A DNA stretch of 37,846 nt. It comes from Bacillota bacterium. Lineage in GTDB: Bacteria > Bacillota > Sulfobacillia > JAJZYS01 > JAJYTV01. Positions 2,028 to 28,966 of this stretch are shown in pieces. The notes beneath the pieces were generated by a model that was not told where the DNA came from, did no database searches, and saw only the letters and a program-made list of their open reading frames with translations. The DNA is taken from positions 1 through 37,846 of the forward strand of contig JAJYTE010000025.1 of the NCBI GenBank assembly GCA_021793215.1. Reading direction: 5' to 3'. A program made the translations under genes and the position numbers. Positions within the stretch are counted from its first letter, which is position 1; the number at the start of each line of letters is the position of its first letter.

Positions 2028-2801
2028 TCACGCGCGGGACCGGGCTCCGGTGTCGAGACGAAAGAGGCGCAAAAACAAAGCGATCGGGCGGTCCAGCAGC
2101 CGGTGTGCTCGCCGCGTCAGGGTGGCGCTGACGGCGCCGATGACTAAGCCCGCAAGGATATCCGTCGGCCAGTGCACGCCGATGAAGACTCGCGCGACCC
2201 CTATTGCCGCCGCGAACGTCGAGAGCGCAGCGGCGCCGAAGCGCCTGACATGGCGACTGCCACTGCGAAGGCGGCGGTCGCGTGGTCCGAGGGGAACGAG
2301 GAGTCGGCGCCGTGGTGAACCATTAGGTGCACGAGATGCGGCATCGCGACGAACGGGCGCGCACGGTAGGTGAAGATAGCGATGACGTAGCAACTGCGGC
2401 CGCCACGGCTCCGTATACCAAGTGGCGACGGTCGTTTGATGCCCTGCGCGGCAACGCGAACCAGAGCACGACCATCAAGGGCCGCGAACGTGAACAGGCC
2501 GTACTGGCCAAAGAACACGCCCAAGGGCAGCAGGAGGTTGGGGGTGCCCCATGCCGTCTCCCGATCCGGTACCGAGAGCAGGCGGAGGACCTCCTCCTCG
2601 ATCAGCGTCCGACGCGAGCGGATGCGTCGGAGCGGAGAGAAGCACGGTGTAGAGCGACTGGAAGCCGGGATACCCCATGATCGGATGCGTTTCATAGGAC
2701 GGCTTGAAGTACATCGACGTCGAGCCGGCGGCGTCGATGGGTAGCTCGGTCGGCGCGAAGGCGTCCGTCAGCACATTGCTCGGGAGCTTGCCCATCGCCA
2801 T
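2028..2801 (-). pseudogene. Frameshifted PAP2-family phosphatase (BcrC/YbjG type)
   Basis: Pieces of one PAP2 membrane phosphatase are spread over all three minus-strand frames. From the 5' side: MAMGKLPSNVLTDAF to QSLYTVLLS (2801 to about 2636); then LIEEEVLRLL, NLLLPLGVFFGQYGLFTFAALDG; then PLMVVLWFALPRRA, HLVYGAVAAA; then YVIAIFTYRARPF and the phosphatase motif FPSDHATAAFAVAVAM (about 2296-2251); finally ARVFIGVHWPTDILAG in another frame to the stop at 2028. Apparent frame changes lie near 2630, 2480, 2393 and 2245. The RP, PSxH and HxxxD motifs of the family (lipid-phosphate, possibly undecaprenyl-diphosphate, hydrolysis) all survive, so decay looks recent. Sequencing indels are possible, but four in one gene beside intact neighbours favour a real pseudogene. 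Confidence 0.75.
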
Positions 2802-2969
2802 CCGGATGATCGCGGGGAAGGGGGAGGCGGCGGCACTGGAAGGTGTCGAAGGCGAAGTCGGAGTGGACGGAGTCGTCGGCGCAGTGGGTGTCGAGGTTTG
2901 CCTCTGTCCCAGGAGTAGCCACCAGGGCCGGGGAGTCTTGGCCCATCCAGCCGAGGTGCGGTCAAGCCC

Positions 2970-3944
2970 TCAGCGCTGGAGGAGCCGGATCTCTCTCGTC
3001 AGTTGCGGCGAGATCTCCAACGCATCCCCGACGACACCGTAGTCGCATATCTTGAAGATCGGGGCTTCGGCATCCCGATTGATGGCGACGATCGTTCGGC
3101 TCGAGGACATCCCCGCAACGTGCTGCACAGCGCCGGAGATGCCGACTGCGATGTAGAGTCCCGGCGAAACTGTCTTGCCGGTCTGGCCCACCTGCTCGTG
3201 GTGCGGGCGCCATCCGGCGTCGACAACGGCGCGGGTTGCTCCGACCGCAGCGCCGAGGCTGTCCGCCAGCTCTTCGACGAGCGCGAAGTTCGCAGGTTCC
3301 CTGAGACCGCGGCCGCCTGCAACGACGATGTCAGCCTCGGACAGCTCTTGACGCCCGCTGGCTTGGCGACGCACCTCCCGGACGGCCGCACGCAGCTCCT
3401 TGGCGTCGACCTCGACGGTCAGGGTGCGCGTCCGCGCCGGTGGACCCTCCTGCGCCGCTGCGGGGAAGGCGTTTGGGCGCACGGCGACGACGGACGTTTC
3501 GGCCAGGCACTCCACTTCCGCGATCACCTTGCCGGCGTAGACCGGCCGACGCGCGGCGAGGTGCCCACCCTTCGCGAAGATCTCCGTTACGTCCATCAGC
3601 AGACCGGCAGCCAAGGTCACGGACACACGCGGTGCGAGGTCTCTCCCCAAGGAGGTTGCACCGAACACCACTGCTTGTGCCGAGGTGGACTCTGCGGCCG
3701 CCTGCACCGCAAGCGCGAACGCTTGTGGGCTATAGGCGGCGAACGCCGGTCCTTCTACGCAGAGCACTTCGTCGCAGTTCGCCGCCGGTACGCCTACAGC
3801 GGAGCGCTGCGCTTGCTGTCCAATGAGCAGTGCGCAGACCCCTCCCGCATGGAGGACCTCGTTCGCCTGCGCCGCAGCGGCGAGGATTTCATAGGAGATT
3901 TTCTTCAGCCCGCCGTCCTGCGCTTCAAGAACTGCCAGAATCAT
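2970..3944 (-). CDS. etfA: Electron transfer flavoprotein, alpha subunit
   Basis: A 324-residue protein with the usual two-part layout of EtfA. The N-terminal alpha/beta domain starts MILAVLEAQDGGLKKISYEI and contains VFGATSLGRDLAPRVS near residue 94. The C-terminal FAD domain runs from about residue 204: VAGGRGLREPANF, GATRAVVDAGW, QVGQTGKTVSPGLYIAVGISG, and INRD...PIF...DYGVVGD. These segments bind the FAD in known ETFs. It pairs with etfB 13 bases upstream. ETF accepts electrons from flavin dehydrogenases and passes them to ETF:quinone oxidoreductase. No acyl-CoA dehydrogenase lies in this cluster, so the DAO-family enzyme at 14557-15693 is a candidate electron donor. It is the last gene of the leftward operon. 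Confidence 0.95.
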   Translation of the reverse strand: MILAVLEAQDGGLKKISYEILAAAAQANEVLHAGGVCALLIGQQAQRSAVGVPAANCDEVLCVEGPAFAAYSPQAFALAVQAAAESTSAQAVVFGATSLGRDLAPRVSVTLAAGLLMDVTEIFAKGGHLAARRPVYAGKVIAEVECLAETSVVAVRPNAFPAAAQEGPPARTRTLTVEVDAKELRAAVREVRRQASGRQELSEADIVVAGGRGLREPANFALVEELADSLGAAVGATRAVVDAGWRPHHEQVGQTGKTVSPGLYIAVGISGAVQHVAGMSSSRTIVAINRDAEAPIFKICDYGVVGDALEISPQLTREIRLLQR

Positions 3945-22248: not shown

Positions 22249-24126
22249 CTACGCCTTGCCCCTGCGCAGCGCACGGGACGTCCTTTGCGCGGCCGAAAGC
22301 GCCTGCTCCGCCAGTGCGAGCGCGGGCTCTCCCGGCAGCGCCTCGCCGTAGCGCGCCTGCTCGAGGAGCGCGAGCACCGGCAGGAGGTCTGACTGCAGCG
22401 GTTCGGGCTGCGCGTAGAACCGCTCGCGCAGCGTTGGCGGACGCCGGTCCGTGAGGGGGCAGAGGCGGGCGAAGCCGCGCTCGAGGCGCTCGATGCGCAG
22501 CCGCGGCGAGGGCTGCCTGCGCCAGGTGAGGAAGGCCGCCGCCGCGAGCAGTAGGGCGAGCAGCGCCGCGAGGACGTCGCCCTCGGGGGCGATGCGCGGC
22601 GGCGGCGTAGCGTGGGGCTTCGCGGGATGTGCGGGCCCAGTCGGTGCCGCCGACGGCGTCGGGTCGATCGGTACCCAGCCGTACGGCGCCACTTCGATCT
22701 CCGCCCAGGAGTGGGCGTCCCTCGCCAGCAGCACCTCGCTCTGGCTCTTCGCGCTGTAGGACCCCGGAGCGAACCCGACGACCCAGCGCGCCGGCAGCCC
22801 GCCGATGCGCGCGAGCATGATGAACGCGGTCGAGAACTGGTCGCAGTAGCCACTGTGCGTGCGCAGGAGGAAGCGGCCGACGGGGTCTGCCTTGGCGCTC
22901 GGCGAGAAGTTCGGGTCGTACGCCTCGTGGGTGTCAAGGTAGTTCGCGATGCGCTGCGCGAGCTGCCAGGGCGACCTGGTGCCCGCCCTGAGTTCGGCGG
23001 CGAGGGGGGAGAGTTCCGCGCGCAGGGCCTTCGGCACCGCGAGGTCGCTCGGCGGAATCTTCGCGGCGGCCGGGTAGCTTGCCGCGTCCATCGCGGCCTC
23101 ACTGAACTTCGGCACAGACAGGGTGAGGCCGTAGGAGGAGACGCCCGGCAGGTAGAGCGCCCGCGACGCGGGCACCTCGTACGCGGTCGAACCGTCGGAC
23201 TCGAGGCTCAAGGGAGTGCCCGCGTAGATCACGGGACCGATGCTGCCGGACACGAACTGGGAGACGCGCACGTGCCAGATCGCGGTGGGCAGACCGCTCG
23301 CCGCGGCCGGGAGCAGCGGCCCGGAGGCGGGCAGCGGGGTCGCGGCGCCCGAGGGCGCGACCCACGACGAGCCGTTGAAGTCGTCGTAGATCGCCTCCTG
23401 CCAGTAGGAGGGGCTTGGCACGCCGCGGATCGTCAAGAGCGGCGTCGCCGACAGCGAGACGGGCCGGTTGATGTCGACGCGGCTCGGCACGCGGCCCGGC
23501 GTGATCGCGACCTTCAGACCCGAAAGGTTCAGCGCGCGCGCCTCGCTCTGGATCAGCGCCTGCGGAGCGCCCGGCGGCACGAGGAAACCGGCCGCGGCCC
23601 CCGCGAGCGGCAGGAGGGCGGCGATGGCGAGCGACCAGCGGATCCTCGTCTGCTGCGCCTCGGCGAGCAGGAAGAGGCCGATGCCGACGTACGCGAGGGT
23701 CGGAAGCTCAGCGGCGAAGCCCCACAAGCGCTGGTTCAGGGCGAGCACCAGCGTACCCATCAGCCAGAGCCAGAGGATGCGGGTGCGCGACGTCGCGTCG
23801 CGGTAGACCTGCCAGCCGAGAAGCGCCGTCAGCCACAGTAGAAGTGACGTGACGAGCTCTGTCAGGGCGCGCAGGTCGGCGACGGTCAGAAGGTGTGAGA
23901 GATTTGCGGTCGAGACGACGTGCAAACTCGCGACCGCGCCGAGCGCGAGCGCCAAAAGGACGCGCAATCCGTAGCGCCAGACCCCGCCCCCGGACGTCAC
24001 GGCCAGCGCGAGCGGCAGTAGCGCGAGCGCCAGCGGCCGCGGCACGCCGCTCGCCACGGCGTATGGCCAGACGAGCAGCCCGAGCCAGGCGCCGCGCAAC
24101 AGCAGCAGGCCGTGCGGGCGGCTCAC
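22249..24126 (-). CDS. TgpA-like membrane transglutaminase/protease
   Basis: A 625-residue protein: about five or six N-terminal membrane helices (to residue 185), an extracytoplasmic DUF3488-type region, a transglutaminase core and a last helix near 515-533 followed by a DUF4129-like cytoplasmic tail. The catalytic triad is visible: C428 (HSGYCDQFSTAF), H472 (RDAHSWAEIEV) and D488 (PIDPTP). Its start overlaps the DUF58 stop (ATGA). With MoxR and DUF58 this is a conserved three-gene module in Gram-positive and other bacteria; the substrate in the envelope is unknown. It is the last gene of the operon. Confidence 0.9.
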   Translation of the reverse strand: MSRPHGLLLLRGAWLGLLVWPYAVASGVPRPLALALLPLALAVTSGGGVWRYGLRVLLALALGAVASLHVVSTANLSHLLTVADLRALTELVTSLLLWLTALLGWQVYRDATSRTRILWLWLMGTLVLALNQRLWGFAAELPTLAYVGIGLFLLAEAQQTRIRWSLAIAALLPLAGAAAGFLVPPGAPQALIQSEARALNLSGLKVAITPGRVPSRVDINRPVSLSATPLLTIRGVPSPSYWQEAIYDDFNGSSWVAPSGAATPLPASGPLLPAAASGLPTAIWHVRVSQFVSGSIGPVIYAGTPLSLESDGSTAYEVPASRALYLPGVSSYGLTLSVPKFSEAAMDAASYPAAAKIPPSDLAVPKALRAELSPLAAELRAGTRSPWQLAQRIANYLDTHEAYDPNFSPSAKADPVGRFLLRTHSGYCDQFSTAFIMLARIGGLPARWVVGFAPGSYSAKSQSEVLLARDAHSWAEIEVAPYGWVPIDPTPSAAPTGPAHPAKPHATPPPRIAPEGDVLAALLALLLAAAAFLTWRRQPSPRLRIERLERGFARLCPLTDRRPPTLRERFYAQPEPLQSDLLPVLALLEQARYGEALPGEPALALAEQALSAAQRTSRALRRGKA

Positions 24127-25172
24127 AGCGCGCCCCGCTCGAGGTGCGCGCTGAGGTCCTGAAGGCGCGTAAGCGCGCCCTGTCCAGCGGCCGCCCCGAC
24201 CCGGAGGATGCGCCCGGCGAACTGCGCCTGCGCGTCCGTCGTCAGGAGCCAGCAGTCCGCGCCGGCGGTTGCCCGCGGCGCCCGGGCGGCGACGAGGTCC
24301 GCTCCGGCGACCGTCGAGAGCGCCGCCAGCAAGCGCAGTCCCTGCTCCGGTCCGCGCTCGGGCGTGACGCCATGCGCCGGTGCGCCCGCGAACTTGAGCC
24401 CGACCGTGTCGCCCGCCGCGATGAAGGCACTGGCCAAGGACGCCGCGCAGGAGAGGAGTAGCTCGAGATCCGCCGCGTCACACTCCTTCGCGTAGAGCGT
24501 CAGGACATACGGCGTGCCGCCCGCGGCGTCGAACTCCCGCACCTGCGGGAAGCCGCGCTGCGCGGTACGCGCGGCGTGCAGGCGGGTCGGCGCGTCGCCG
24601 GGCTGGAAGTCGCGCGTGCCGCGCGGCAGGAGGTCCAGGGCATCCCTGCCGCCCTGGGGCGGAGGTGCCTTCAGGGAGACGCGCGCGGGGTGCACGAGCA
24701 GTTCGCCGGCGCAGGGCACGAGGAAGGCATGCCGCGAGAGCGAGAGCGCGTCGCCCGCCTCGAGAGAGATCGGCCCGAAGGGGTGCAGGCCGCGCGGCAC
24801 GCCATGCAGCGTGTAGGAGGCGCTCAGGCTGCGCCTGCTGCCTGAGAGCACGCGCTCCTCCGGCAGGCCCTGCCCCAGCGCCGTCGCCGACGCGTCGCGC
24901 AGCGAGAGGACGCAAAGCGGCCAGAGGCGCGGGAAGTCGACGTCGACGCGGACGAGGACGTCCTGTCCGGCCTCCACCGGGCCCTCGGGCAGGTACCGTC
25001 GGGCGCGCGCCCGGCGGGCCGGCAGGGCGCCGACGTAGGCGACGCCGGCCAGAACCGCCGCGAGGGCGGCGACTCCCCCGAGCGCCGCCCCGACGCTGCC
25101 GCCGGCCGCGAGCGCGGCGACCGCGAGCACGGCGATCGGCACGAGGCCACGGAGGCGGGCGGCGAACTTCAT
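24123..25172 (-). CDS. DUF58-domain protein
   Basis: A 349-residue protein with two N-terminal membrane helices (residues 10-50), a beta-rich middle (VRVDVDFPRLWPL, HGVPRGLHPFGPISLEAGD) and the DUF58 signature RGTRDFQPGDAPTRLH (185-199), equivalent to the usual 'YxPGDxxRxIxW'. After it comes a vWA-like fold beginning YVLTLYAKECDAADLELLLS; the normal metal-site 'D-x-S-x-S' is not present, so it may not bind a metal in the usual way. It overlaps both neighbours by four bases. MoxR-type ATPases are thought to act on vWA proteins such as this. Confidence 0.88.
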   Translation of the reverse strand: MKFAARLRGLVPIAVLAVAALAAGGSVGAALGGVAALAAVLAGVAYVGALPARRARARRYLPEGPVEAGQDVLVRVDVDFPRLWPLCVLSLRDASATALGQGLPEERVLSGSRRSLSASYTLHGVPRGLHPFGPISLEAGDALSLSRHAFLVPCAGELLVHPARVSLKAPPPQGGRDALDLLPRGTRDFQPGDAPTRLHAARTAQRGFPQVREFDAAGGTPYVLTLYAKECDAADLELLLSCAASLASAFIAAGDTVGLKFAGAPAHGVTPERGPEQGLRLLAALSTVAGADLVAARAPRATAGADCWLLTTDAQAQFAGRILRVGAAAGQGALTRLQDLSAHLERGAL

Positions 25173-26116
25173 GCGCGGTTGTCGCGGGGGACGGGGACCG
25201 ATGCGAGCACGTCGTCAAGGCACCCAAGCGGACGCGACGTGCGGCAGTGCATGCGGTGGGCCAGTGCGTCCGGCGTCAGTTCGCGAACGTCGTCCGGCAG
25301 GACGAAGTCGCGCCCGTGCAGGCGCGCCCAGACCTTCGCCGCCCGCAGGAGGGCAACGGCCGCGCGGGGGCTCGCGCCGAGGAGGGCGTCCGGGTGGACG
25401 CGCGTCGCGCGGGCGATCTGCTGCACGTAGGAGAGGACGCCCTGGGACACGTGCGTTTTGAGCGCCTCCTGGCGCAGCGCGAGGAGATCCTTGCGCGAGA
25501 TCGCCGGCGAGAGCGCCTCGGGACGGATTTCCGACGACATCCGGCGGAGGAGCTCGTCCTCGTCGCGCGCCTGCGGGTAGTCGAGATGGATCTTGAACAG
25601 GAAGCGGTCGAGTTCCGAGGTCGGCAGCGCGTAGGTCCCCTCGTGCTCCGCGGGGTTCTGCGTCGCGAGGACGCTAAAAGTATCAGACAGAGGATAGGTG
25701 TGGCCCTCGGACGTGACCTGGCCCTCCTCCATCGCCTCGAGCAGCGCGGACTGCGCGCGCGGCGACGCGCGGTTGATCTCGTCCACGAGCACGATCTCGG
25801 CGAAGACTGGGCCTGGCCGGAAGTCGAACTCCTGGCGCGAGGGATCGTAGATGTGCACGCCGACGATGTCGGCCGGCAGGAGGTCCGCCGTCGCCTGGAT
25901 GCGGGAGAAGCGCAGGTCAAGCGCGCTCGCGAGCGACTTCGCGAGCAGCGTCTTGCCGACGCCGGGCACGTCCTCGATCAGCACGTGGCCGCCGGCGACG
26001 ACGGCGCAGAGGACGCGCAGCGCCGCATCCCGCTTGCCAACGACCTGACGTTCAACTTCATGTAAAACGCGCTCCACGCGCGGATCCAACTGCTCCTTGG
26101 GCTCGCGTTCCGCCAT
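25169..26116 (-). CDS. MoxR-family AAA+ ATPase
   Basis: A 315-residue AAA+ protein. Walker A is DVPGVGKTLLAK (49-60), Walker B is EIVLVDEINRASPRAQ (from 107), sensor 1 lies in FSVLATQNPAEHEGTY, and the MoxR-typical MEEGQVTSEGHTYPL follows. The C-terminal lid contains GASPRAAVALLRAAKVWARLHGRDFVLPDD when read in parts. Such ATPases act as chaperones for vWA/DUF58 partners. ATG at 26116 follows GGGAGGAACCG. It is the first gene of the leftward trio and is divergent from the ECF sigma gene across a 158-base gap. Confidence 0.93.
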   Translation of the reverse strand: MAEREPKEQLDPRVERVLHEVERQVVGKRDAALRVLCAVVAGGHVLIEDVPGVGKTLLAKSLASALDLRFSRIQATADLLPADIVGVHIYDPSRQEFDFRPGPVFAEIVLVDEINRASPRAQSALLEAMEEGQVTSEGHTYPLSDTFSVLATQNPAEHEGTYALPTSELDRFLFKIHLDYPQARDEDELLRRMSSEIRPEALSPAISRKDLLALRQEALKTHVSQGVLSYVQQIARATRVHPDALLGASPRAAVALLRAAKVWARLHGRDFVLPDDVRELTPDALAHRMHCRTSRPLGCLDDVLASVPVPRDNRA

Positions 26117-26274
26117 CGGTTCCTCCCGTCGGAAGTCTCGAGCGTCTAGACTCTACCATAAGCGAACCACGCGCCGCGAAGGGCAGGCGCATACTGGAAA
26201 CGCTTCGCGCAACCAGTTCGGCGCCACGATCGTTCTTCACAGTGTGAGGTCAAAAGCGCCCCAGGAGGTCTGAG

Positions 26275-26772
26275 ATGAATCTGGAGCGAGAGAAAGAGTT
26301 CGAGGCGTTTTACCGGAGCGAGGAGCGCCGTGTACTGCGCCTTACCTACGGTCTCCTCAGGGATTCTGGCCTCGCGCAGGACGCAGCCCAGGAGGCCTGG
26401 ATGCGCTACCTGCGCTACGCAGGAGGGCCACGGGCGCAGTTCTCGGTGCCACTTCTGCTGACGATCGCCCGAAACGCGGCGCGGGACGCCGACCGCCGGC
26501 GCAGGCGGCACCCGGAGGAGCTCAAGGACGAGATCATCGCGCCCGCCCAGTCCGGGGAACCAGTCGAACGCGATCTCATGGAGGCCATCTGGAAGCTGCC
26601 CGAAGCAGAGCGCGAGGCGGTGCTGATGCACTACGCGCTCGACTTGCCGCTCGCGGAGATCGCCGACGTGCTCGAGAAGCGTACGGGCGCGGTGAAGAGC
26701 CTGCTGCACCGAGCGCGCGGCCACCTGCGCGCCTTGCTTACCCCGGAGGAGGAGATCTCACATGGACGCTAG
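26275..26772 (+). CDS. ECF-type RNA polymerase sigma factor
   Basis: A 165-residue sigma factor. Region 2 spans about residues 8-75: FEAFYRSEERRVLRLTYGLL, then GLAQDAAQEAWMRYLR and LLTIARNAARDADRRRRR. Region 4 spans about 100-155: WKLPEAEREAVLMHYALD, LPLAEIADVLEKRTGAVKSLLHRARGHLR read in parts. AGGAGG precedes the ATG. The gene end overlaps the start of the next gene by 11 bases, as sigma and anti-sigma genes commonly do. No clear ECF-type GGAAC/CGTC promoter was found in the 158-base gap upstream, though GGAAAC occurs near 26197. Confidence 0.93.
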   Translation: MNLEREKEFEAFYRSEERRVLRLTYGLLRDSGLAQDAAQEAWMRYLRYAGGPRAQFSVPLLLTIARNAARDADRRRRRHPEELKDEIIAPAQSGEPVERDLMEAIWKLPEAEREAVLMHYALDLPLAEIADVLEKRTGAVKSLLHRARGHLRALLTPEEEISHGR

Positions 26773-28966
26773 GGACGACCGCCTGGAGGAGCGCCTGCGG
26801 GGCCTCGGCAAGGCGCTCGATCACGAGATCGGTCCCGTCGACACCGATGCGGGGTGGAACCGCGTGCGCTCGCACGCGGCGAGCGCGCCGCGCAAGCCGG
26901 CGCACGCGCAGCACCGGAGCCGTGCACCGCATCCCGGCCGCTGGGTGAGCGCAGCCGCCGTGCTGGCGGCGGTCCTCGTCGCGACGCCCTATGTTCTGAA
27001 CCAACTGCACCCGAAGCAGACGACGCCTCCCGCTACGAAGAACACCGTACAGGGCGAAACGGTACCGATCGGCAACATCTCGGGCGTCGACTTCCTGACG
27101 CCTCGGGACGGATTCGCGACCGCGGCGCTCGGCAGCTACGGTGCGCAGAACGCCGTGCTCTCGACGACGGACGGCGGGACGTCGTGGGCCGTCCACCGCC
27201 TGCCGCAAGGCTACACGGCCCTGGCGGTTCACTTCACCGACGACCAGAAGGGATACGTGCTGGCGCAGCAGACTGGGCTGGGCCAGGCGGGCGCTGCGAG
27301 TCAGCTCGTTCCGACCGTGATCCTGGCGACGCAGGACGGCGCGAAGAGCTGGCACGTCGCCTGGAGCGAGCCGGGCGCGCAGGCGCTCTCGAACGGGACG
27401 ACCTTGATGCGCGTCGGATTCCAGTTCTTCGGCAGCCAGGGCTACGCGTTCGTCGGCGACAAGGTCCTGACGACGACGGACGGGTTCAAGAGCTGGTCCC
27501 CGCTCACGCTGCCGAGCGGCTACGAGCCGGTGCACATGGACTTCCTCACGGCGCGGACCGGCTTCGTCGCAAGCCAGCAGTGCCCGGCGAACCAGGCCGG
27601 GGGCAGCATCGCCGGCTGCCAGCCAAGGCTGATCCAGACGACGGACGGCGGGCAGACCTGGTCGACGGCGTTCTCCCCGTCAGGGCAGAACTACTGGGCC
27701 TATTCCGGCGCCGTGAGCTTCGCGACCTCCCAGGACGGCTGGTACTTCCAGAAGAACTCCGCCACGTGGCAGGGGACGCTCTACCAGACCACGGACGGCG
27801 GGAGGAAGTGGACGCTTGCGCAGCCGAACTTCGCCCAGGGCCGCACCGTGGCCGGCGCGCCGACGTTCGTGACACCGAAGGTCGGCTGGCTGCCGATCAA
27901 CGTAGGCGCGGCGCCGTATCCAGGCGGCCTCCTGATCACCCGCGACGGCGGCGCGACCTGGACGACCGCGAGTGCGAACCAGGTCTGGAGCCTGAATAGC
28001 GTGTCGATCCTCTCGGCGAAGGTCGGCTACGCGGCGGGCGAGAATCCGTCCTCGCAGCAGGGCTTCCTCGTCAAGACCACGGACGGCGGCCGCACGTTCA
28101 CCCAGGTGCTGCCAGCCCTCTCGCCCTCGAGCCTCGTGGAGTTCCCCGATACGGCGCATGGCTTCGGCATCGGCATCCCGTCGGACGGGCAGGCTTTCAT
28201 CGCGACGACCGACGGCGGCAAGACCTGGACCCAGCGATCCGAGCTGCCGCAGGGCGCCATGGGGCTCTCCTTCGTCAGCCCGAACGTCGGCTTCGCGATC
28301 GCGGCGCCGAAGAACGCGGGCACGTCGATGCAGGTGCTCTCGACCAAAGACGGCGGCCGGCATTGGCAGGTGCGCGCGAACCTGAGCGCGGCATCGGGCC
28401 AGCTCTACGCGACGACGCCGTACGTGAAGTTCTTCGACAAGGAGCACGGCGTGCTCGAAACGGAGGACTACCCGCAGACGGTGCTCGAGCAGACGAGCGA
28501 CGGCGGCAGGACCTGGACCCAGATGGTGACCCAGACGAGCACGCCAGGCAGCTGGCAGCAGTACGACTTCCTCTCTCAGGCGGTCGGCTTCCAGCTCTCG
28601 ACCGTCGTGAACCAGGGCCAGGGGACCGCGACGCTCCAGCGCACGACGGACGGCGGCAAGACCTGGTCGACGGTACAGCAGTTCACGAACGGCGACTGGG
28701 GCGAGGCGATCTACTTCTCCTCCGCCCAGGACGGCTGGCTCGCGATGCAGAGCGCACCGGCGACCCAGAACTCCCAGACCGTGATCCTGCAGACGACGGA
28801 CGGCGGCAAGACCTGGGCGAGCCACCCCGTGGGCGGCCCGGCGCTGCAGCCCTTCAACAACAGCCTGCTGCTGCAGTTCCCTGACGCCCAGAACGGTTGG
28901 CTGCTTGGCAATAACGGGATCTACCGCAGCACGGATGGCGGGCAGACTTGGACGCAGCAGCCCTAG
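26762..28966 (+). CDS. Membrane-anchored Asp-box (BNR/Ycf48-like) propeller protein, candidate anti-sigma factor
   Basis: A 734-residue protein. Residues 1-60 are cytoplasmic-looking and charged (DDRLEERLRGLGKALDHEI, WNRVRSH), without a clear zinc site. One membrane helix lies at about 61-79 (WVSAAAVLAAVLVATPYVL). The remainder is extracytoplasmic and carries about 13 Asp-box turns of the form TTDGGxTW, at roughly even spacing from residue 135 to the end. This is the pattern of sialidase-type and Ycf48/HCF136-type beta-propellers. GGAGGAGG lies before the ATG, which is inside the sigma gene. Short cytoplasmic part, one helix, outer sensor domain and overlap with sigma together suggest an anti-sigma factor with a propeller sensor. 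No sialidase active-site set was recognised. Confidence 0.8.
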   Translation: MDARDDRLEERLRGLGKALDHEIGPVDTDAGWNRVRSHAASAPRKPAHAQHRSRAPHPGRWVSAAAVLAAVLVATPYVLNQLHPKQTTPPATKNTVQGETVPIGNISGVDFLTPRDGFATAALGSYGAQNAVLSTTDGGTSWAVHRLPQGYTALAVHFTDDQKGYVLAQQTGLGQAGAASQLVPTVILATQDGAKSWHVAWSEPGAQALSNGTTLMRVGFQFFGSQGYAFVGDKVLTTTDGFKSWSPLTLPSGYEPVHMDFLTARTGFVASQQCPANQAGGSIAGCQPRLIQTTDGGQTWSTAFSPSGQNYWAYSGAVSFATSQDGWYFQKNSATWQGTLYQTTDGGRKWTLAQPNFAQGRTVAGAPTFVTPKVGWLPINVGAAPYPGGLLITRDGGATWTTASANQVWSLNSVSILSAKVGYAAGENPSSQQGFLVKTTDGGRTFTQVLPALSPSSLVEFPDTAHGFGIGIPSDGQAFIATTDGGKTWTQRSELPQGAMGLSFVSPNVGFAIAAPKNAGTSMQVLSTKDGGRHWQVRANLSAASGQLYATTPYVKFFDKEHGVLETEDYPQTVLEQTSDGGRTWTQMVTQTSTPGSWQQYDFLSQAVGFQLSTVVNQGQGTATLQRTTDGGKTWSTVQQFTNGDWGEAIYFSSAQDGWLAMQSAPATQNSQTVILQTTDGGKTWASHPVGGPALQPFNNSLLLQFPDAQNGWLLGNNGIYRSTDGGQTWTQQP

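Follow-up and report, generated by a model that had tools for sequence, protein, structure and literature searches.

In the usual layout for inhibitors of ECF sigma factors, the sigma gene is followed by an overlapping gene for its membrane partner and the pair is autoregulated (PMC8103513, PMC8999054). Class I anti-sigma domains average 101 residues, and those with fewer than 50 residues have been set aside as possible class II domains; in CnrY, two helices bind the sigma4 and sigma2 domains (PMC7406223).

The window, which is the whole 37,846-nucleotide stretch of Bacillota DNA that was analysed, contains a gene for an ECF sigma factor followed by a gene for a membrane-anchored protein with Asp-box repeats (Table 1). 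Sequence comparison indicates that the pair is probably a sigma/anti-sigma switch (probability roughly 0.83), in which an inner domain would clamp the sigma factor at the membrane and a propeller outside would serve as the sensor module. A wider proposal is offered tentatively, with the odds somewhat against it: the inner domain of about 40 residues (ExxLxxxGxxxDxxxxxxD) may be an undescribed minimal anti-sigma domain that is transferable, being joined to a tandem propeller, to another outer domain or to the sigma factor itself, and the propeller may be a new extracytoplasmic sensor for sigma factors that was recruited at least five times.

Table 1. Positions of the features discussed, in window coordinates unless a locus is named
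Feature	Position	Strand	Basis
Run of moxR (first), DUF58-like (below cut-off) and transglutaminase-core membrane protein genes	22249-26116	-	
MoxR-type AAA ATPase gene, divergent neighbour	25169-26116	-	Pfam
Predicted ECF-type promoter (-35 GCAACC, 16-bp spacer, -10 CGTTCT)	26209-26236	+	38 bp before sigma start codon
ECF sigma factor gene, 165 aa (sigma2 and sigma4)	26275-26772	+	Pfam matches above cut-off
Overlap of sigma and membrane-protein frames, 11 bp	26762-26772	+	Sequence; 11 bp in 8/8 orthologous pairs
Membrane-anchored Asp-box protein gene, 734 aa	26762-28966	+	ORF
Residues 1-45, proposed minimal anti-sigma domain	26762-26896	+	Alignment; profile search of 151 genomes; low-confidence model
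Residues 46-60, basic, poorly conserved juxtamembrane linker	26897-26941	+	24% identity over residues 33-58
Residues 61-79, transmembrane helix without lipobox	26942-26998	+	Hydropathy; helix 61-79 in model
Residues 99-734, outer part with 13 Asp-boxes	27056-28963	+	PSII_BNR, BNR and Sortilin matches; Asp-box count; fold comparison
Sigma-inner domain-helix fusion	L121:4148-4822 (G000:C24:33647-34321)		In-frame ORF
Sigma-inner domain-helix fusion	L123:1042-1722 (G002:C83)		In-frame ORF
Sister-genus promoter copies	L138:1501, L139:1501, L140:1064, L143:1501		Before lipoprotein genes: DUF3048, Asp-box, PD40, one unknown

The sigma gene and its overlapping partner

ECF sigma factors were taken to be proteins of about 160-200 residues with sigma2 and sigma4 domains only, and the 165-residue protein is one of them, since it matches Sigma70_r2 with 27.9 bits (cut-off 24) and Sigma70_r4_2 with 54.8 bits (cut-off 25.7). 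Its nearest solved relatives are SigW, SigH and SigE, at 25-35 bits. Searches with tblastn using both proteins found the pair in the same gene order in the window's genome and in seven further genomes of its family (G001 and G003-G008), most of the assemblies compared being split over many contigs. Anti-sigma genes generally lie directly downstream of the sigma gene and usually overlap it or are co-transcribed with it, and this is the position of the propeller gene, with an 11-bp overlap, in all eight genomes. The moxR gene lies divergently beside the sigma gene in each of the seven orthologous loci that extend far enough; it is a conserved neighbour and is not proposed to belong to the switch.

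Hydropathy places a single membrane helix at residues 61-79 of the partner, so that 60 residues precede it. Among eight orthologues, mean pairwise identity is 64% over residues 5-32, 24% over residues 33-58, 59% over the membrane segment and 61% over the outer part, and the drop from 64% to 24% indicates that a short module of the inner part is conserved and that the residues after it form a free linker. Residues 1-100 contain no cysteine and consequently no zinc anti-sigma motif. The sequence-only reading had described a sigma gene that overlaps its neighbour by 11 bases and a neighbouring product with about 60 cytoplasmic residues, one membrane helix, about 13 Asp-boxes and no recognised zinc motif. 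These descriptions hold: the overlap is exact and recurs in every orthologous pair, the Asp-boxes number exactly 13, the cysteines of a zinc site are absent, and the 60 inner residues can be narrowed to a conserved stretch that covers only about the first 32.

Promoter and candidate regulon

Autoregulated, bipartite promoters with a -35 element of the AAC type are a feature of ECF sigma factors. The bipartite motif GCAACC-N16-CGTTCT is found upstream of the sigma gene in all eight genomes, with all 12 hexamer positions invariant and with variable spacer and flanks. It starts 61-73 bp and ends 35-47 bp before the start codon, and of the 15 invariant columns between -30 and about +38 relative to it, 12 belong to the two hexamers. 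The exact motif occurs in the window's genome as a single copy, at the sigma gene, and paralogous sigma factors of the same clade have a related sequence upstream, G[CG]AAC[CG]-N18-TGTTA, which was read by eye. Because an invariant motif with the form of an ECF promoter precedes the sigma gene in eight genomes, autoregulation is likely, and the sigma factor would thus activate its own promoter. When one mismatch was allowed, the motif had 26 further sites in the window's genome, nearly all inside long ORFs, and these were set aside as noise.

Every other exact copy of the motif in the sister genus stands 28-83 bp ahead of a lipoprotein gene, and four of these are independent. This distribution, noticed post hoc, suggests that envelope lipoproteins belong to the regulon. 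In one genome, G007, the motif precedes the gene for a lipoprotein with Asp-boxes.

The outer part

Asp-boxes are repeated hairpins of the form S/T-x-D-G-G-x-T-W within a propeller fold. The 13 copies in the outer part are spaced 43-55 residues apart, and none of 2000 shuffled versions of the protein contained more than one. With a PSII_BNR match of 95.5 bits (cut-off 27) and further matches to BNR and Sortilin-Vps10, the outer part is an Asp-box beta-propeller of the PSII_BNR/BNR type. Two structure models, one of the whole protein and one of the outer part alone, were each built on two sequences, that of the window and that of one related locus. The whole-protein model is poor (pLDDT 53); it has helices at residues 2-23, 28-40 and 61-79 and is made almost only of strands thereafter. 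The model of the outer part, which is of moderate confidence (pLDDT 65.7), is matched best by GH74 enzymes, with Z scores of 22-23.6 and an rmsd over the whole model of about 12, which makes the mutual orientation of the two propellers unreliable. The first half of the outer part resembles single propellers, with Z 22 and rmsd 3.1 for YncE and with Z 20 and rmsd 3.6 for Ycf48. GH74 enzymes consist of two tandem seven-bladed propellers and carry catalytic acids. Judged from the models, the outer part of the window protein probably also forms two tandem propellers.

The inner domain and its tie to one sigma clade

The inner domain carries the motif E9-x2-L12-x3-G16-x3-D20-x6-D27, whose five residues are invariant in 15 aligned sequences and are shared by the membrane proteins encoded behind related sigma factors within the family. 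A profile of the domain, built without the fusion proteins described below, was run against 151 genomes of the class. It gave 17 strong matches, all within the window's family, and each of the 17 either follows a sigma factor of one clade immediately or is joined to one in frame; every other match had an E-value of 0.002 or worse. Several partners in the family, in G005, G006, G008 and G009, combine the same inner domain with an unrelated outer part, about 250 residues long, that has neither Asp-boxes nor a Pfam match. The closest propeller relatives that lack a sigma factor (E-values of 1e-95 to 1e-103) belong to another family of the order (G012-G014); they start almost at the membrane helix, have no inner domain and do not adjoin a sigma gene.

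The domain itself matched no Pfam family, and its profile matched no solved anti-sigma chain at E<=10; the hits among solved chains were chance ones, to a methyltransferase. A weak hit to an NCBIfam 'anti-sigma factor' entry (E=0.0038) scored 17 bits, far below the cut-off of 100. The two inner helices, at residues 2-23 and 28-40, are predicted with a pLDDT under 50 over most of their length.

It is possible that the propeller protein is not a regulator but a co-transcribed envelope product under the control of the sigma factor, with the gene overlap reflecting compact gene packing. Many Asp-box proteins in these bacteria are indeed stand-alone lipoproteins with no sigma gene, and the Asp-box lipoprotein of G007, which shares the promoter motif, indicates that proteins of this kind can be sigma targets. 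Those unlinked proteins lack the inner domain, however, and their anchoring differs, since, among the Asp-box proteins examined, a lipobox is present in 26 of 40 unlinked ones and in none of 14 that are linked to a sigma gene (Fisher p=1.5e-5, or p about 0.004 with orthologues collapsed to six types). The comparison suggests that Asp-box proteins in these bacteria are mostly lipid-anchored, and that those with a sigma partner combine an inner domain with a plain transmembrane segment. An output protein would have no need of this inner domain, which occurs only with this sigma clade, is also found on unrelated outer parts and is also fused to sigma factors. A role of the membrane protein as output is thus unlikely, and a role as anti-sigma factor is preferred.

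Fusions of a paralogous sigma factor to the inner domain

In two genomes (G000, contig C24, and G002, contig C83), one continuous reading frame encodes a paralogous sigma factor, the inner domain and a membrane helix, and no outer part follows. A third fusion, in G003 (C50, L122), is a version with a broken frame. The profile recovers the inner domain in the fusions of G000:C24 (E=1.5e-5) and G003:C50 (E=3.7e-8). Gene fusion is a classical sign of interaction between the parts. The fused sigma factors are divergent, with sigma2 falling under the Pfam cut-off in one and going undetected in the other, and they may be degenerate; such a fusion may be a sigma factor held at the membrane, or else a gene in decay. 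Some extensions of ECF sigma factors elsewhere seem to be derived from fusion with an anti-sigma factor (PMC8999054).

Alternatively, the membrane protein could be a positive regulator or a tether that is needed for sigma activity. The fusions lend this alternative some force, because a pure inhibitor fused to its own target would seem wasteful unless the domain positions or activates the sigma factor. The fused sigma factors, though, are the divergent and perhaps degenerate ones, and the order seen in the window, with an overlapping partner behind a probably autoregulated sigma gene, is the one usual for inhibitors (PMC8103513, PMC8999054). A positive role is very unlikely on this evidence, and the inhibitory role remains the preferred one.

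Apparent repeated recruitment of propellers

The window's genome (G000) encodes three sigma/Asp-box pairs, on contigs C15, C72 and C29, and further pairs are found in G003, G020 and G056. In a tree of 42 sigma factors, the distribution of Asp-box partners requires five label changes, all of them forced by well-supported branches, although some placements are uncertain because of long branches, and losses can be among the five changes. Propellers have apparently been attached to at least five sigma/anti-sigma lineages in the class, as interchangeable sensor modules. Genomes of seven other families have Asp-box genes, and no sigma gene with a propeller neighbour was found in them, which makes the pairing recurrent and not universal. 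The sequence-only reading had proposed an anti-sigma factor of unusual design. The first part gains support from the co-occurrence of inner domain and sigma factor across 151 genomes, the in-frame fusions, the swaps of outer part and the relatives that lack both domain and sigma gene. The word unusual needs qualifying, given that the window's genome alone has three such pairs and that five sigma lineages of the class have them.

Several other arrangements were observed. In the G000:C29 pair (L124, about 2287-3500), the reading frame of the propeller is interrupted after about 141 residues, which probably reflects an assembly frameshift or a pseudogene; the version in G003 is longer (L093). On contig C44 of G056, two sigma/Asp-box pairs stand in tandem (L111:1892-7373). 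The inner domain of the first resembles that of G000:C72, and that of the second resembles a partner without a propeller in G000:C12 (L035), an apparent swap of outer parts. The genomes compared are rich in Asp-box lipoproteins without known function, and about six Asp-box genes, most of which encode lipoproteins, are clustered on one contig of G003 (C20; L093, L094). A pair resembling sigma-I and RsgI was recognised by eye in the window's genome (G000:C63:43916, L042), where both designs may coexist.

Proposed mechanism

In the mechanism proposed here, the inner domain, spanning about residues 5-40 with two short predicted helices, would clamp the sigma factor in the manner of CnrY and hold it at the membrane in an inactive state. 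Outside the cell, the Asp-box propeller, probably a tandem one, would bind a ligand or an envelope partner, and the sigma factor would be freed by that binding or a conformational change, or by cleavage of the anti-sigma factor and its membrane segment. The window's genome encodes site-2-type proteases of the M50 family; all 14 control genomes do so as well, and their presence is therefore no more than compatible with proteolytic release. Once freed, the sigma factor would activate its own promoter and probably envelope genes too.

With five unrelated ECF lineages carrying Asp-box propellers, this little-studied class would provide a testable system for finding propeller ligands. The inner domain is compact enough for residue-by-residue mapping of sigma binding, and the conserved promoter is a ready reporter.

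Comparison with known systems

To our knowledge, most of the anti-sigma factors described so far whose outer sensors are large and modular belong to the RsgI family, in cellulolytic clostridia. In the literature searched, anti-sigma factors with Asp-box, BNR, WD40 or other propeller repeats had not been described before, the 2021 ECF reclassification lying outside that search. RsgI of Clostridium thermocellum resembles the window protein in its short inner domain, single helix, large interchangeable outer sensors and autoregulated operon (PMC6056542). RsgI differs in that its partner is sigma-I and its outer part a carbohydrate-binding module, whereas the partner here is an ECF sigma factor and the outer part an Asp-box propeller; the window protein has no Pfam match to the RsgI N-terminal domain and falls outside that family.

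Class I anti-sigma factors such as RseA, RsiW and ChrR likewise have ECF partners, are mostly membrane anchored and are encoded directly downstream of them. Members of that class have a domain of four helices and about 100 residues, in which Hx3Cx2C may or may not be present, while the window protein has at most 60 inner residues, of which about 32-40 are conserved, and no Hx3Cx2C; its length places it outside class I. The class II type represented by CnrH/CnrY of Cupriavidus metallidurans is similar in having a very short two-helix inner domain (a low-confidence prediction here), one membrane helix and an ECF partner. Unlike CnrY, the window protein carries a large Asp-box propeller outside, and it has no detectable sequence similarity to solved anti-sigma chains.

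ECF57 sigma factors with WD40-like C-terminal extensions also link an ECF sigma factor to a propeller-type repeat (PMC8999054), but their repeats lie within the sigma protein, whereas the Asp-box repeats here belong to a separate membrane protein. GH74 xyloglucanases, Ycf48 and sortilin share the Asp-box beta-propeller, and in the models the tandem form is GH74-like and the first propeller Ycf48-like. Identity to these proteins is 12-18%, and the window protein's propeller differs from them in being tethered behind a sigma-linked inner domain.
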